Below are positions 4,275 through 42,833 of a stretch of DNA of 44,182 nt, in pieces. The notes beneath the pieces are model-generated. The model worked only from the letters and a program-made list of their open reading frames with translations, did no database searches and had not been told where the DNA came from. The first letter of the stretch is position 1. Each line of letters begins with the position of its first letter. Source of the stretch: Patescibacteria group bacterium. Lineage in GTDB: Bacteria > Patescibacteriota > Patescibacteriia > Magasanikbacterales > UBA922. The position numbers and the translations under genes were made by a program. The stretch covers positions 1 to 44,182 of the forward strand of contig JAQUAW010000008.1 of NCBI GenBank assembly GCA_028687045.1, given 5' to 3'.

Positions 4275-4306
4275 AAAACAACCTCGAATTCAATCGAGGT
4301 TGTTTT
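4275..4306. terminator. Bidirectional terminator
   Basis: Perfect 13-bp stem AAAACAACCTCGA (4275-4287) / TCGAGGTTGTTTT (4294-4306), followed by T on the plus strand and A-rich on the other side. It separates the convergent DUF4105 gene and rplA. Confidence 0.9.
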
Positions 4307-4338
4307 TATGTTTTTATGTTCTTGTGTTTTTATGAAAA

Positions 4339-5318: not shown

Positions 5319-6287
5319 CTAGCTTTTCAGACCTTTCTTTCCGTGGAAGCGTTTATGTACATTCTTCAACTCTTTATCCGTAATATGTGTATAAATTTGT
5401 GTAGTCGTGATAGAGGAGTGGCCGAGCATAGACTGGACACTACGGATGTCTGCGCCATTTTGGAGCAAATCAGTGGCGTAAGAGTGACGCATGGTATGAG
5501 GAGTCACCTTTTTGGTAATTCCTGCTTCTAGGGCGTGTTTTTGGACTATACGTTGGATTGAGCGAGGGGTCAGTGGTTCATCATGGTCTTTTTGTTTGCC
5601 AAAGCGTTTGTCATGAGAAATGAACATGTAAGTATTCATATCTTTGCGAGTGTCTAGATATTTTTGGAGCCAAATCTTAGCTTCGTCCGATAAAAATACG
5701 ACGCGAGATTTACCACCTTTGCCAAGAACAGTAAATTCATCACGTTTTAGATTGATATCTTCTTTTTCTAGGTTGGCTAACTCAGAAACACGTAAGCCAG
5801 TTGAAAATAATAATTCGAGTATTGCTTTGTCGCGGTAGGCGATAAGTAATGTCATTCCACCTCCATTTTCTTTTTCTAGACTTTTTTTACTGATATTTTT
5901 TATTGGCGCTTCCAAAATTCTAGTGATATCATCGCTGTCTAAAAAACTAACTTCGCGGTCTGGCATTTTCATTAGTTCTATTTTTTCAGGAGCAAGTGTA
6001 ATTACATCTTTTTTGGCTAGATATTTTAGGAAAGAGCGTAGAGCGATGAGGTGATAATTTTGCGTATTCTTTTTTAATTCTTCACCATGTGCATCGGTAA
6101 ACCTATTGAGCCAGAGACGAAATTTGCGTACGCTTTCTCCTGTGATATCTTTGGCAGTGGCGTCTTTGCCAAGCCATTCGAGAAAACGAGAAAGGTAAAA
6201 GTTGTAGTTTTCAACGGTTTTTTGACTTCTGTTTCTTTCTATTTCGAGGTGTTCCAAGAACTGTGTTAGATATTGTTTTAGAGACAT
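5319..6287 (-). CDS. xerD: Tyrosine recombinase, XerC/XerD type
   Basis: 322 residues. The N-terminal SAM-like core-binding domain (about 1-95) precedes the catalytic domain with the full tyrosine-recombinase set: Arg166 in STGLRVSEL, Lys190 in LGKGGKSR, His264 and Arg267 in HTMRHSY, His290 in LGHSSITTTQIYTH, and nucleophile Tyr299. It is slightly longer than typical Xer proteins because of an insertion of about 20 residues (130-150) before YRDKAILELL. As the only recombinase seen and not near phage genes, it probably resolves chromosome dimers at a dif site; no dif site was identified here. C versus D cannot be decided because many CPR genomes have a single Xer. Confidence 0.93.
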   Translation of the reverse strand: MSLKQYLTQFLEHLEIERNRSQKTVENYNFYLSRFLEWLGKDATAKDITGESVRKFRLWLNRFTDAHGEELKKNTQNYHLIALRSFLKYLAKKDVITLAPEKIELMKMPDREVSFLDSDDITRILEAPIKNISKKSLEKENGGGMTLLIAYRDKAILELLFSTGLRVSELANLEKEDINLKRDEFTVLGKGGKSRVVFLSDEAKIWLQKYLDTRKDMNTYMFISHDKRFGKQKDHDEPLTPRSIQRIVQKHALEAGITKKVTPHTMRHSYATDLLQNGADIRSVQSMLGHSSITTTQIYTHITDKELKNVHKRFHGKKGLKS

Positions 6288-6303: not shown

Positions 6304-6344
6304 AATGAAAACATTAAAGCATTAAAACATAAAAGCACGTGACC
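6304..6344 (+). repeat. Left inverted-repeat arm of the S23 cassette
   Basis: 41 bases starting AATGAAAACATTAAAGCATT and ending GTGACC, built from the word attaaaaca. It matches the reverse complement of 6777-6817 at 39 of 41 positions. Confidence 0.9.
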
Positions 6345-6358
6345 TGACCACCAATTAT

Positions 6359-6757
6359 TTAAATCTTTTCTGTTTGTGGAGGAAGAGCCGGTTTTTTAGG
6401 GTTTAAGGATTTTGAGAGTAAATCTATCTCTGACCAGAGCATGGCATTTATTTCATCGAGTTGTTTGCTTAGCTCATTGTAGTTATTTTCTGTTAAAAAA
6501 TTCAATTTTTTTGATAAATATAGCAGATATTCTGTTTCTTTGGCAGAGCCAAAGGCTGTACGCATAAAGTTTAGTTGATGTTTTTCTGTAAAACGAGCGT
6601 AGCCTTCGGTGTAGTTTAAAATTATAGACAAAGCGGCGCGCTTGAGTTGAGAAGTTGTGACGTATATTTCTTCTCTTGGAAAATTTTTTGTTTCCAAAAA
6701 TATTTTTTCAACAAAATTATGCATTTTTTGTTTTAAAATTTTCTTGAATCCCTCCAT
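6359..6757 (-). CDS. S23/IVP-family four-helix-bundle protein
   Basis: 132 residues matching the family first found as ORFs inside 23S rRNA intervening sequences: NFPREEIYVTTSQLKRAALSIILNYTEGYARFTEKHQLNFMRTAFGSAKETEYLLYLS. The family forms a pentameric basic four-helix bundle and is related to Avd of diversity-generating retroelements; its cellular role is unsettled, with nucleic-acid binding likely. The gene fills a 514-bp cassette (6304-6817) bounded by near-perfect 41-bp inverted repeats, unlike any other gene in the window except the second S23 gene at 26998. It is not inside an rRNA. The tail KKPALPPQTEKI looks unstructured. Confidence 0.92.
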   Translation of the reverse strand: MEGFKKILKQKMHNFVEKIFLETKNFPREEIYVTTSQLKRAALSIILNYTEGYARFTEKHQLNFMRTAFGSAKETEYLLYLSKKLNFLTENNYNELSKQLDEINAMLWSEIDLLSKSLNPKKPALPPQTEKI

Positions 6758-6776
6758 ATAACTTTTTAATTATTTA

Positions 6777-6817
6777 GGACACTTGCTTTTATGTTTTAAT
6801 GCTTTAATGTTTTCATT
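6777..6817 (-). repeat. Right inverted-repeat arm of the S23 cassette
   Basis: Mirror copy of 6304-6344, with mismatches only in the innermost 7 bases. No clear target-site duplication is visible outside the arms. Confidence 0.9.
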
Positions 6818-10366: not shown

Positions 10367-11068
10367 ATGAGTGACAAAGCCAAACAACATACTTTCAATA
10401 TTTTCAAGCAAGTACATCGCAACTTGCCACCTTTGGTTGACGAAAAATTGAGGGAAGAAATGAGATCCAAAATTGAAGATTTGATAGATACGGGCAATGT
10501 TACTTTGGAAGAATTGGAAAATATTATGATTTTTTATGGTAAAAAAGTTTGGCCTTATGTCCAGGCTTTTGAGGATATTTATCATGTTTATCATGAAAAA
10601 CTTTCGGAAAAAATATTTTTGGCTAAAGCTTCAAAAAAAATAATTAAAAAATATAATTTGGTAAAATCCACTGGTGTACATTTTTTTGATTTGTTTAGTG
10701 GTGCTATACATCATCTTTTTAGTGATGATGAAAGATTGGAACTTACAGAGTTGCTTATATCTTTGAAAAAAGATATTAGACAACATACTAAGCAGGCTGT
10801 TCTTACCCATGATAAAAGTCATTATGAAGAAAAAATAAATAAATATGGACAAATGATTCATGATATAAATAGAGTTATAGAAGATTTACATAAATTTGCC
10901 AATGATGAAGATGACAATAATTTGACTTTGGATATTCGTGATAAATTGAGATCAATTGAGTATAGTCTAGCTTTTTTGGGACCAAAGATAAATTTTTTTG
11001 AGATATTAGATTTGCCAGAGTATTATGTAGGAAAGAAGCATGAGAAAAAGATGAGAAGGATGATTTAG
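10367..11068 (+). CDS. Helical protein, unknown function
   Basis: 233 residues from ATG 10367 (MSDKAKQHTFNIFKQVHRNLPPLVDE). An upstream in-frame ATG at 10283 would add 28 residues encoded by short-word repeats and is rejected as the start. The protein is mostly amphipathic helix with many His, Lys and Asp residues, no membrane segment and a basic end (GKKHEKKMRRMI). A His-rich stretch (HQVHR, FGxxxYHVYHEK and GAIHHLFSDDE type segments) could bind metal, but no known domain is recognised. It is followed by a bidirectional terminator. Confidence 0.75.
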   Translation: MSDKAKQHTFNIFKQVHRNLPPLVDEKLREEMRSKIEDLIDTGNVTLEELENIMIFYGKKVWPYVQAFEDIYHVYHEKLSEKIFLAKASKKIIKKYNLVKSTGVHFFDLFSGAIHHLFSDDERLELTELLISLKKDIRQHTKQAVLTHDKSHYEEKINKYGQMIHDINRVIEDLHKFANDEDDNNLTLDIRDKLRSIEYSLAFLGPKINFFEILDLPEYYVGKKHEKKMRRMI

Positions 11069-11095
11069 GCATTAAAACATAAAAACATTAAAACA

Positions 11096-11121
11096 AAAAA
11101 ACAGCTACGGAGCTGTTTTTT
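11096..11121. terminator. Bidirectional terminator
   Basis: Perfect stem AAAAAACAGCT (11096-11106), loop ACGG, AGCTGTTTTTT (11111-11121). It lies between convergent genes and is preceded at 11070-11094 by attaaaaca-word repeats like the S23 cassette arms. Confidence 0.9.
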
Positions 11122-17435: not shown

Positions 17436-20414
17436 ATGCCATACAACTCCAACGAAAACGAATTAGAAATACTTAAATATTGGGATGAAAAAAAGATTTT
17501 TGAAAAATCTATTTTAGAACGTCCAGAAAACAAACCTTATGTTTTTTATGATGGTCCACCTTTTGCGACTGGTCTTCCTCATTATGGACATCTGGTAGGT
17601 ACGGTGATGAAAGATGTCGTGCCACGTTATTTCACTATGAAAGGTTTTCGCGTCGAGCGTAAATGGGGTTGGGATTGTCATGGTTTGCCTGTAGAAAATA
17701 TTATTGAAAAAGATTTGGGATTAAAATCAAAGAGAGAAATTGATGAAATGGGAATTGACAAATTCAACGAGGCTTGTCGTAGCACTGTGCTTACGTATGC
17801 TGAAGAATGGAAAAAAACAATTCATCGTATTGGTCGTTTTGTGGATATGGAAAATGATTACAAGACCATGGATTTGAATTTTATGGAAAGTGTTTGGTGG
17901 GTTTTCAAAGAATTGTGGAATAAAAACCTTATTTACGAAGGTAAGAAAGCCATGCATATTTGTCCACATTGTGTCACACCACTTTCTAATTTTGAAGTTA
18001 CTCAAGGTTATAAGGATATCAAAGATTTGTCAGCCACTGCCAAATTTCGTGTGACTGATGAAAAATTTAAGAGTAAATTTGATCTAGGTGACAGAGAATT
18101 ATATATTTTGGCTTGGACTACTACACCTTGGACTTTGCCTGGCAACGTCTTACTTGCGGTTGGTAAAGATATAGATTATGTCGTAGTCAAAGGTGAACAT
18201 AATTATTATATTGTAGCCAAAGAAAGAGTTGGAGATGTTTTCCAATCCAAAGATAAAGAAGAATATGTACTTATCAGTACGATGAAAGGTGAGGAATTAT
18301 TTGGTATCAAGTATGAACCACTTTTCTCATATTTTGCTAACACGGAAAATGCTTTCAAAGTAGTAACAGGAGATTTTGTAACTACTGAAAATGGTACAGG
18401 CATCGTGCATATCGCCCCCGCTTTTGGTGAAGACGATTACAGTCTTGGACAAGAACATCAAGTCGGTTGGGTGCAACATGTGACTATGGAAGGTAAATTT
18501 ACTGAAGATGTTTTGGATTTTGTAAATCAAGAAGTAAAACCAAAAGATGATCATACCAAAACAGATATTGAAATTATCAAATGGTTGGCACACAATGAAA
18601 AATTATTTAGTAAAGAAAAATTTGAACATAGCTATCCACATTGTTGGCGTTGTGATACACCGCTTCTCAATTATGCAACTTCTTCTTGGTTTGTCAGAGT
18701 AACGGAAATAAAAAATGAAATGTTGCGTAACAATAAAAAAACAAATTGGGTGCCAGATCATATCAAAGACGGACGTTTTGGTTTATGGTTAGAGGGTGCT
18801 CGTGATTGGGCTATTTCACGCAATCGTTATTGGGGTTCAGCTTTGCCAATTTGGCGTAGTCAAGATGGTGAGACTGTTTGTATTGGTTCTGTTGAAGAAT
18901 TAGAAAAATTGTCTGGACAAAAAATAACTGATTTACACAAACATATTATTGATAAAGTAACTTTTGAAAAAGATGGTAAGACTTTTACTAGAATTCCAGA
19001 AGTGCTTGATTGTTGGTTTGAATCTGGTGCAATGCCTTATGGTCAAATGCATTATCCTTTTGAAAACAAAGCTAAGTTTGAAGCTGGTTTTCCAGCTGAG
19101 TTCATTGCCGAAGGTCAAGATCAAACTCGTGGTTGGTTTTATACTTTGCATGTTTTGGCTACAGCTTTGACTACGGGCAAAAATCCTTCTATACCTTTGA
19201 AAGAAAGTGTGCCAGCTTTCAAAAATGTAATCGTCAATGGAATCGTTTTGGCGGAAGATGGTAAAAAAATGAGTAAACGTCTCAAGAATTATCCAGATCC
19301 TTTGGTCGTCCTTGAAAAATATGGTGCTGATGCTCTTCGTTATTATTTGGCTTCTTCTCCAGTGATGTATGCGGAAGGTTTGAATTTTTCTGAAAAAGAT
19401 GTGCGTGAAGTTTACAACAAAGTAGTAAATACTCTTTGGAATGTGTTTACGTTTTTTTCTATATTCAATACTGACGGCGGAATGAGGAATGAGGAACGGG
19501 GAATGGATTCTAAAAACATCTTAGACAAATGGATTGTTGCCAAGTTGCATGGGCTTTTGAAAGAAGTGACAGAAAAAATGGAAGAGTACAAGCTGGCAGA
19601 AGCTAGTCGTCCAATTCTTGATTTCATTACCGAACTTTCACAATGGTATGTTCGTCGTTCTCGTGATCGTTTCAAAAGTGGAATGGGGGATGAGGAACGA
19701 GGAATGGAAGATAAAGCTCAGGCTACTGCAACTTTACGTTATGTTTTGATGACACTTAGTAAAATCATGGCGCCATTTACACCATTTATTTCCGAAAAGA
19801 TGTATCGTGAACTTGGTGGTGAACTAGAATCTGTGCATCTTGAGTCTTGGCCAAATTTTGACAAAAAATTGATTGATGAAAAAGTTTTGAAAGAGATGGA
19901 AGATGTGAGAAAAGTGGTAGAGATGGGATTATCTCTTCGTGCAGAAAAAGGAATAAAAGTGAGACAAGTCTTGAAAGAATTTTATGTGACTGGTAGAGAT
20001 TTTTCTGAAGATGTAAAAAATATTATTGCTGAAGAACTCAATGTCAAAGAAGTTTTGTTTGAAAATTTTGACAAAGAAGATAATCACTTGAAGAAAAAAG
20101 AAGATTGGGGATTCAAAATAGCACTCAATACTCACATCACGGAAGAATTGAAAAAAGAAGGTTTGGTGCGTGAGATTGTGAGAACAATAAATCAAATCCG
20201 CAAAGAACAAGGTATGACTATTGAAGATCAAGTGCTAGTAGAATATCATACAGATGATGAAAATTTGCAAGCGGTTTTTGTAGATTATGAAGCTGAAATC
20301 AAAAAGAGTGTTTTGGCTAGAGAATTAATTGCTGAGAAAATTGTTTTGGATGAATCTGATGACAAAGGGTATGAGATTGATGGGGTGAAAGTTTTGTTGA
20401 GTGTGAAAATATAA
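17436..20414 (+). CDS. ileS: Isoleucyl-tRNA synthetase, IleS2 type
   Basis: 992 residues. Class I signatures: HYGH (49-52) in PPFATGLPHYGHLVG and KMSKR (about 610). GWDCHGLPVE, the CP1 editing domain (LAWTTTPWTLPGNVLLAVG), a CPHCVTPL Cys pair, and an anticodon-binding C-terminal half are all present. The ATGLPHYGH wording and length fit the eukaryotic-like IleS2 group, many members of which are insensitive to mupirocin (family knowledge). It charges tRNA-Ile with Ile and edits Val. Expression is controlled by the T-box leader. Two loops, near residues 682-690 and 749-757, are encoded by 28-bp repeats (see 19479 and 19680) giving MRNEERGM and MGDEERGM. Confidence 0.98.
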   Translation: MPYNSNENELEILKYWDEKKIFEKSILERPENKPYVFYDGPPFATGLPHYGHLVGTVMKDVVPRYFTMKGFRVERKWGWDCHGLPVENIIEKDLGLKSKREIDEMGIDKFNEACRSTVLTYAEEWKKTIHRIGRFVDMENDYKTMDLNFMESVWWVFKELWNKNLIYEGKKAMHICPHCVTPLSNFEVTQGYKDIKDLSATAKFRVTDEKFKSKFDLGDRELYILAWTTTPWTLPGNVLLAVGKDIDYVVVKGEHNYYIVAKERVGDVFQSKDKEEYVLISTMKGEELFGIKYEPLFSYFANTENAFKVVTGDFVTTENGTGIVHIAPAFGEDDYSLGQEHQVGWVQHVTMEGKFTEDVLDFVNQEVKPKDDHTKTDIEIIKWLAHNEKLFSKEKFEHSYPHCWRCDTPLLNYATSSWFVRVTEIKNEMLRNNKKTNWVPDHIKDGRFGLWLEGARDWAISRNRYWGSALPIWRSQDGETVCIGSVEELEKLSGQKITDLHKHIIDKVTFEKDGKTFTRIPEVLDCWFESGAMPYGQMHYPFENKAKFEAGFPAEFIAEGQDQTRGWFYTLHVLATALTTGKNPSIPLKESVPAFKNVIVNGIVLAEDGKKMSKRLKNYPDPLVVLEKYGADALRYYLASSPVMYAEGLNFSEKDVREVYNKVVNTLWNVFTFFSIFNTDGGMRNEERGMDSKNILDKWIVAKLHGLLKEVTEKMEEYKLAEASRPILDFITELSQWYVRRSRDRFKSGMGDEERGMEDKAQATATLRYVLMTLSKIMAPFTPFISEKMYRELGGELESVHLESWPNFDKKLIDEKVLKEMEDVRKVVEMGLSLRAEKGIKVRQVLKEFYVTGRDFSEDVKNIIAEELNVKEVLFENFDKEDNHLKKKEDWGFKIALNTHITEELKKEGLVREIVRTINQIRKEQGMTIEDQVLVEYHTDDENLQAVFVDYEAEIKKSVLARELIAEKIVLDESDDKGYEIDGVKVLLSVKI
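19479..19506 (+). repeat. In-frame 28-bp repeat inside ileS, copy 1
   Basis: Starts GGAATGAGGAATGAGGAACG and ends GGGGAATGG. It encodes GMRNEERGM in a linker before LDKWIVAKL. It matches copy 2 at 25 of 28 positions. Confidence 0.85.
19680..19707 (+). repeat. In-frame 28-bp repeat inside ileS, copy 2
   Basis: Starts GGAATGGGGGATGAGGAACG and ends AGGAATGG, 201 bases after copy 1 and so in the same frame. It encodes GMGDEERGM in a variable loop of the anticodon-binding region. Confidence 0.85.
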
Positions 20415-20490
20415 AAGCATGAAAACATAAAAACATTAAAACATTAAAACACTTGTCCCTACTTTGTCGGTGATTAAAATACATTAAATT

Positions 20491-26898: not shown

Positions 26899-26966
26899 AA
26901 AGAGCTTACAAGGCTTACAGGGCTTACAACCTACCGGCAGGTAGGCATTGGGCTAACGAGGCTTAA
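26899..26966. repeat. Left gcttacaagg word arm of the second S23 locus
   Basis: AGAGCTTACAAGGCTTACAGGGCTTAC (26901-26927), then the palindrome CCTACC-GGCA-GGTAGG (26930-26945) and GGGCTAACGAGGCTTA. It mirrors 27361-27397 imperfectly. Confidence 0.7.
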
Positions 26967-26997: not shown

Positions 26998-27360
26998 ATG
27001 CAAGATTATCACAATTTGAAGCTCTGGAAAGAAAGTTTGGAATTTGTTAAACTAGTGTATAGATTGGTCAAACTATTCCCACAGGATGAATTGTATGGTT
27101 TGACAAGTCAATTACGTCGTGCTGCAGTATCTGTTATGGCTAATGTGGTCGAAGGTCGTGGTAAACCAACTGACAAAGACTTTTTGAAATTTTTGTATAT
27201 TTCCAATGGCTCTTTGAATGAATGTCAATGTTATTTTGAGTTAGCTATAGAATTGGATTATATAAATAAAGAACAATTTGATTTTATTTATAAAAAAAGT
27301 AAAGAAGTAGGATTTTTATTATATAAATTAATAACTAGTTTGTCCCATCAGGGACAATAA
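26998..27360 (+). CDS. S23/IVP-family four-helix-bundle protein
   Basis: 120 residues, a second and divergent member of the family at 6359. Conserved blocks are YHNLKLWKESLEFVKLVYRLVKLFPQDELYGLTSQLRRAAVSVMANVVEGRGKPTDKDFLKFLYISNGSLNECQCYFELA. Compared with the first copy it keeps the common Y..L..WK N-terminus seen in most bacterial S23 proteins. Like that copy it lies between mirrored short-word repeats (26899-26966 and 27361-27397), though the arms are less perfect. No rRNA is nearby. Function unknown beyond likely nucleic-acid or protein binding as an oligomer. Confidence 0.93.
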   Translation: MQDYHNLKLWKESLEFVKLVYRLVKLFPQDELYGLTSQLRRAAVSVMANVVEGRGKPTDKDFLKFLYISNGSLNECQCYFELAIELDYINKEQFDFIYKKSKEVGFLLYKLITSLSHQGQ

Positions 27361-27397
27361 GTAAGCCTAGTAGGCCTTGTAAGCCTCGTAAGCTTTA
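27361..27397. repeat. Right gcttacaagg word arm of the second S23 locus
   Basis: GTAAGCCTAGTAGGCCTTGT, then AAGCCTCGTAAGCTTT; its reverse complement (AAAGCTTACGAGGCTTACAA...) resembles the left arm at 26899-26928. It starts directly after the S23 stop codon. Confidence 0.7.
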
Positions 27398-42604: not shown

Positions 42605-42833
42605 GTAGTGCACTTCAAGAGCGCACGGTGGATGCCTTGACACTGTCAGACGAAGAAGGACGTTGCAGGGTGCGATAAGTCTCGGTTAGGTCCCAAGCAA
42701 CCTTTGACCCGGGAATTTCCGAATGGGGGAACCCATTCCGAGTAACATCGGAATACTGTGTAGTAAATACATAGCTACATAGAGAAGACCTGGTGAAGTG
42801 AAACATCTCAGTAACCAGAGGACAAGAAAACAA

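Follow-up and report, generated by a model that had tools for sequence, protein, structure and literature searches.

The window considered here, a stretch of 44,182 nucleotides (nt) from contig JAQUAW010000008.1 of a Patescibacteria group bacterium, carries at 6304-6817 a cassette in which a single gene of the S23 protein family is enclosed by two inverted repeats. We consider it likely, with a probability of roughly 70 %, that this cassette belongs to a bacteria-wide class of small mobile elements, each with an S23 gene between inverted arrays of short, lineage-specific words. The size of S23 cassettes is about 430-640 bp. The one in the window comprises the following features.

6304..6345, no strand assigned: arm A, 3' of the S23 gene, made up of degenerate CATTAAAR 8-mers in tandem (repeat search and direct reading)
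6776..6817, no strand assigned: arm B, 5' of the S23 gene, repeating arm A in inverted orientation (repeat search)
6359..6757, minus strand: S23 / 23S_rRNA_IVP four-helix-bundle gene, 132 aa, PF05635 and TIGR02436

The first-pass annotation of this DNA had described near-perfect 41-bp inverted repeats, and within those bounds 39 of 41 positions indeed match; the full arms were found to be 42 nt each and 95 % complementary. Its further claim that they enclose only a four-helix-bundle gene agrees with the presence of S23 as the sole open reading frame (ORF) between them, the product being a member of PF05635 (E=3.3e-30, 104.9 bits, cut-off 33.8) that also matches TIGR02436 (E=4.7e-29, 100.8 bits, cut-off 24). 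Local alignment of the upstream and downstream flanks gave a score of 40, whereas pairing this upstream flank with the downstream flanks of other S23 genes gave 12-18, and the RNA fold of the cassette has z=-9.0; with a score so far above the flank-swapped controls and such a fold, the inverted repeat is not due to chance. On direct reading, each arm turned out to be an array of degenerate octamers (CATTAAAG CATTAAAA CATAAAAG) rather than unique sequence, and the complementary ends are able to form a long stem around the S23 ORF. Unlike insertion sequences of the DDE, serine or tyrosine kind, the cassette has no transposase gene between its arms, where S23 is the only gene.

The source genome (G000; 1.15 Mb in 55 contigs) contains 11 S23 genes, and all ten for which both flanks are available sit between their own inverted arrays. 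These arrays consist of degenerate tandem words of 7-12 nt, with a different word for each gene, the words of the ten cassettes being AGCCAATAGCC, AGTAAACAG, AAGGCTTAC, GGAATGAGGTATG, CATTAAAR, GAGATAAAAT, TAATCACC, CACATAACA, AATATTAAACG and AATTTTCA. Flank alignment scores for the ten range from 17 to 47, as compared with 10-24 for mismatched flanks; two cassettes with a score of 17 (L009 and L017) overlap some of the controls and were accepted by alignment together with reading. A second cassette lies within the window.

26900..26929, no strand assigned: left arm of the second S23 cassette, with a different, AAGGCTTAC-like word
26998..27360, plus strand: second S23 gene, 120 aa, PF05635 at 2.1e-35
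27359..27396, no strand assigned: right arm of the second S23 cassette

The arrays are also found dispersed. Copies of the arms were sought in a 367-kb sample of the source genome, where the CATTAAAR family of the window arms occupies at least 17 places, of which 15 lie beyond the cassette and lack S23, against 0.05-0.25 places expected from shuffled arms. The array family of every cassette likewise has gene-less copies in this sample by comparison with shuffled arms, and the places of such solo arrays are mostly intergenic (43 of 58, against 16 % of random positions). The arms do not always flank S23 genes, a point that the first-pass annotation had proposed to test; conversely, nearly every S23 gene of this genome does lie between arms.

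Comparison of the same locus between relatives shows that occupancy differs. At the window site the S23 cassette is present at the orthologous locus in G001 and G003, while G004 lacks S23 and has a REP-like palindrome instead (REP, repetitive extragenic palindrome). In the comparison of G000 with G002, most sites having flanks 93-99 % identical, the counterpart of an S23 cassette is a gene-less CCATTGT hairpin (L016/L179) or a TACGAAAT hairpin (L012/L181); an S23-less cassette faces the full form from its own family (L183/L054), and following a tRNA gene a bare GGCTTGAAA hairpin in one genome corresponds to an S23 cassette in the other (L184/L055). At a junction between YbaB-like and recR-like genes, where the flanks are 94-95 % identical, the S23 proteins are 63 % identical and the words are different; here one cassette has taken the place of another. 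Mobility of the cassettes is, on the evidence of such aligned loci, well supported. At one further site (L180, G002:C33 9026-11983), about 2.9 kb of other coding sequence occupies the position where G000 has the L017 cassette.

The sequence of the arms follows that of the protein. Among non-orthologous loci, S23 similarity and arm similarity were correlated with a Pearson coefficient of 0.333, whereas 2000 permutations gave a mean of 0, a standard deviation of 0.028 and a maximum of 0.092; a few of the pairs scored as non-orthologous, namely those of L062, which a contig end truncates, may in fact be orthologous. Arms matched strongly in 0-1 % of pairs when the proteins were of low similarity and in 61 % when they were highly similar, and since the coupling is present only among close proteins, the Spearman coefficient is near zero. 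The S23 genes are under purifying selection, with ratios of nonsynonymous to synonymous substitution (dN/dS) mostly of 0.04-0.13, one nearly identical pair being uninformative; for the window gene the ratio is 0.04-0.07 against the L046 and L062 copies. S23 lies on the strand of its upstream neighbour at 77 of 83 loci, compared with a baseline of 227 of 300 (Fisher p=0.0004), and on that of its downstream neighbour at 67 of 79 (p=0.10), with short gaps between S23 genes and neighbours on both sides. The strand bias and the short gaps fit insertion into transcribed junctions, where RNase III could clear the stem from the message.

Beyond the source genome, S23 genes were found in 22 of 39 related genomes, with up to 16 per genome. 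For 85 Patescibacteria-like S23 loci the flank score averaged 22.2; control ORFs averaged 13.3 and mismatched S23 flanks 11.9. When an inverted repeat score of at least 15 was combined with a tandem signal, both were present at 68 of these 85 loci, at 48 of 79 loci from multiple phyla and at 9 of 15 plasmid loci, against 38 of 278 control ORFs, a background rate of 14 %. The multi-phylum set draws on Planctomycetota, Bacteroidota, Chloroflexota, Acidobacteriota, Clostridia, Proteobacteria and further groups; the search pattern behind it was derived from a tighter alignment, and the 80 loci obtained are biased towards SIPxNxAEG proteins. When 13 arms were searched against 13 genomes, nearly all of the matches listed were to the genome's own arm, with 120 such matches listed for a planctomycete, 55 for Phormidium, 9-21 for several others and the arm itself only in two genomes. 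Most of the plasmid loci belong to cyanobacteria; the arms at these loci include (GGGAGTA)n, (AAAAGCT)n and (AGTCAGG)n, and cassettes lie there between cas6 and cas4, cas10 and cmr3, and nrdB and nrdA; those at L200, L201 and L208 are within CRISPR-Cas operons (cas6/cas4; cas10/cmr3). A search of phage records with the L009 protein returned no S23 match. The S23 genes of Lysobacteraceae (L219, L225, L228 and L243, from Xanthomonas and relatives, the source of structure 2GSC) lack flanking arrays and possibly represent a domesticated copy.

S23 genes are also carried by the intervening sequences (IVSs) of 23S rRNA. Rfam detected no rRNA at 6304-6817, and the 23S gene of the window begins only at 42605, so the cassette is not inside rRNA. 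In Azospirillum lipoferum 4B, on the other hand, an S23 cassette (L211) does lie inside a 23S rRNA gene. The sister rRNA operon, on another plasmid of this strain, has a 19-nt hairpin tip where L211 has 473 nt, and the flanks of the two operons are identical over 337 nt to the left and 491 nt to the right. L211 was the only IVS found when the fetched loci were screened with the 5' part of the window's 23S gene. Its arms consist of GACGGAT/GACAGAG words, and in Coxiella three tandem GACAGAT heptamers stand beside the S23 ORF of an IVS that is excised by RNase III (PMC4990558). From the Azospirillum and Coxiella examples it follows that the window cassette is built in the same way as rRNA IVSs. 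In the IVSs of Coxiella, Leptospira and Azospirillum, as in the cassette, an S23 ORF occupies the loop and the complementary ends pair into a long stem; IVSs and cassettes likewise have in common the short tandem words next to the ORF and the replacement of a small hairpin tip. They differ in location, the window cassette and the majority of others being found at junctions of protein genes and not in rRNA, and in that S23 cassettes come with numerous word families in a genome and with gene-less arrays scattered elsewhere. The best reading is that rRNA IVSs are a special case of the S23 element class.

A second connection is with the short tandemly repeated repetitive (STRR) sequences of cyanobacteria. 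The S23 arrays correspond to the STRR type, namely degenerate tandem words of ~7-11 nt dispersed in intergenic DNA, and share with the STRR and TAACTGA arrays their position near start codons and their patchy occurrence. MacGregor (2015) reported TAACTGA heptamer arrays for which 'no mechanism is evident', proposed a translational role for them and suggested that a repeat-binding protein was possibly the mobile element (PMC4679880); that report describes the repeats alone and assigns no protein partner or element to them, whereas arrays of the GGGAGTA, AAAAGCT, AGTCAGG and TAACTGA types occur as arms of S23 cassettes. We found TAACTGA arrays in 23 of 292 cyanobacterial genomes searched, and at about 8 of 26 inspected S23 loci from TAACTGA-bearing cyanobacteria the heptamer or its complement stands in the S23 flanks in the layout of cassette arms, an adjacency scored by eye and motif for which we estimate a chance level of ~1 % given a few dozen arrays per genome. 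The cyanobacterial STRR-type words and the hitherto unexplained TAACTGA repeats form the arms of S23 cassettes.

The best reading of these results is that S23 acts on its own repeats, by a logic comparable to that of REP sequences and their RAYT proteins and without a transposase; its mode of action we infer as follows. The protein matches structure 2GSC and, by homology to XCC0516/2GSC, would form a ring of four-helix bundles; an S23 protein is known as a pentamer (PMC4990558). Such a protein, possibly through a ring-shaped oligomer, may bind to single-stranded nucleic acid at numerous copies of its own word simultaneously and join both arms as one long hairpin, which host enzymes would then copy or exchange into another small hairpin, loop or variable intergenic stretch. 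Host enzymes are invoked because the cassette has no transposase and the reverse transcriptase family RVT_1 is unmatched in the source genome. RVT_1 was searched for in G000, G002, G004 and G018 without a match, and a resident reverse transcriptase was accordingly rejected as the driver of movement. Gene-less hairpins and solo arrays would be by-products or non-autonomous relatives, on which S23 may act in trans. Landing between co-directional genes or in the tips of rRNA helices would be tolerated since the long stem can be removed from the transcript by RNase III, as in the Coxiella IVS (PMC4990558), and classical 23S rRNA IVSs, cyanobacterial STRR-type words and TAACTGA repeats might all be products of one element class. 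Taken at its widest, this would make S23 proteins the mobility factors of a bacteria-wide, previously unrecognised class without a conventional transposase, each lineage recognising its own word and using host machinery to move or copy cassettes with inverted arrays, hairpins without a gene and solo arrays, one hairpin replacing another, in a manner accounting for rRNA IVSs, STRR-type and TAACTGA repeats; we put this forward tentatively, at somewhat less than even odds.

Several observations weigh against a mobile S23 element. About 20-40 % of S23 genes are without detected arms, some of them at conserved loci; the conserved Lysobacteraceae copies and an Avd gene of the retroelement type (L069) are among these. 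Most dispersed copies are solo arrays and not hairpins: an inverted repeat score of at least 20 occurs in 19 % of solo places and in the same 19 % of random intergenic positions, and in view of this lack of enrichment most copies are taken to be single arrays. The possibility that they are mostly hairpins, as REPINs are, was rejected on the same 58 places. The first-pass annotation had suggested looking for clean empty sites in relatives; cassette-less alleles do exist, yet a joined-flank search in the genus returned no perfectly clean single-copy empty site, the alternative alleles mostly being other elements, and no target-site duplication was seen there. Concerted evolution of the two arms is not supported, since arms of orthologous cassettes are more alike than the arms within one cassette. 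To our knowledge S23 has no catalytic activity, and all the evidence is computational.

A regulatory explanation, which we regard as unlikely, would have S23 as a word-specific nucleic-acid-binding regulator, the arrays at its own gene being autoregulatory and the dispersed ones its regulon, with words multiplying by slippage and selection while cassettes stay in place. Arrays do stand near the start codons of neighbouring genes, the translational role proposed by MacGregor, who also suggested a mobile repeat-binding protein, points the same way, and the coupling of protein and arm would be expected of any cognate binder. Such a regulator leaves unexplained the inverted arrays on both flanks, the replacement of a whole cassette between flanks 94-95 % identical, the insertion in a 23S rRNA gene and the gene-less arrays that vary between species, including those in frame within ileS.

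It is also quite unlikely, in our estimate, that the arrays spread by an unrelated process such as slippage, gene conversion or template switching, with S23 as passive cargo inserted into or kept between them. The mostly single, S23-less state of dispersed arrays, the ileS arrays that replace rather than insert, and the lack of a transposase in the cassette are all in keeping with passive cargo, but arm sequence and S23 lineage go together at different loci and in different genomes, purifying selection on S23 is strong, and inverted arms flank S23 far more often than control ORFs. A strict 23S rRNA IVS, escaped or misassembled and peculiar to this organism, shares the gene family and stem-like ends and is nevertheless very improbable, and refuted as a general account, given the cassette at the orthologous locus in G001 and G003, ten further S23 genes at ordinary loci of the source genome, no rRNA at 6304-6817 and the same layout outside rRNA in many phyla.

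Among known systems, the S23 cassette resembles REP/REPIN-RAYT (TnpA-REP), in which a small resident gene likewise has cognate short repeats dispersed in intergenic DNA, together with some gene-less hairpins. It differs in having no Y1/HUH transposase, in repeats that are arrays of 7-12-nt words and not a fixed palindrome, in dispersed copies that are mostly single arrays, and in several S23-word pairs per genome. The first-pass view of an IVS-like or REP/RAYT-like mobile cassette outside rRNA stands functionally, on the cognate inverted arms genome-wide, the dispersed arms, the co-variation of arm and protein, the occupancy differing between congeners and the same anatomy in a true 23S IVS; without a Y1 transposase the cassette is not a member of REP/RAYT. 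The Avd and bAvd proteins of diversity-generating retroelements share the fold superfamily, and the window protein matches both weakly, below the cut-off; the cassette, unlike such retroelements, has no reverse transcriptase (RVT_1 is unmatched in G000; template repeats were not searched). In G003 (C59, L069/L214) a weak S23/Avd gene adjoins a reverse transcriptase and has no flanking arrays, and this is probably a diversity-generating retroelement.

Our search of the open-access literature found no paper connecting S23 with dispersed short repeats. A widespread small mobile element, with a layout recurring across most bacterial groups examined and appearing to move without a known transposase, could explain several puzzling bacterial repeat families. 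Short-tandem repeat families described without a mechanism would gain a gene partner and a possible origin, 23S rRNA IVSs would be placed in a wider class, and a testable role is suggested for PF05635, a large protein family of unknown function, with a predicted system of many small protein-word recognition pairs.

The window holds further solo arrays and one gene beside the cassette.

4300..4333, no strand assigned: solo CATTAAAR-family array, directly downstream of the ribosomal protein L1 gene
11063..11103, no strand assigned: solo CATTAAAR-family array
20404..20458, no strand assigned: solo CATTAAAR-family array starting at the ileS stop codon, where G001 and G004 differ in sequence
19479..19506, no strand assigned: solo array of the GGAATGAGG family (the word of the L012 cassette), within ileS, reading frame kept
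19675..19707, no strand assigned: second GGAATGAGG-type array, within ileS, frame kept, absent from G003 and G004
5319..6287, minus strand: XerC/D-like tyrosine recombinase, PF00589 at 1.2e-44, NF040815 above cut-off

The GGAATGAGG-type arrays in ileS stand in place of a variable stretch (a loop) or lengthen it, with the frame intact. The XerC/D-like gene adjoins the cassette on the S23 strand and lies outside the arms; other cassettes have different neighbours. A second one-gene element was also noticed, with an ORF judged by eye to be DUF559-like and flanked by the REP-like repeats TCCCCCTCC...GGAGGGGG, at L186 (G000:C55, about 10400-11100), L126/L188 (G004:C23 370-490) and G000:C4:16340-16590; its REP-like palindrome occurs alone at other loci as well, in intergenic sites shared with S23 cassettes.
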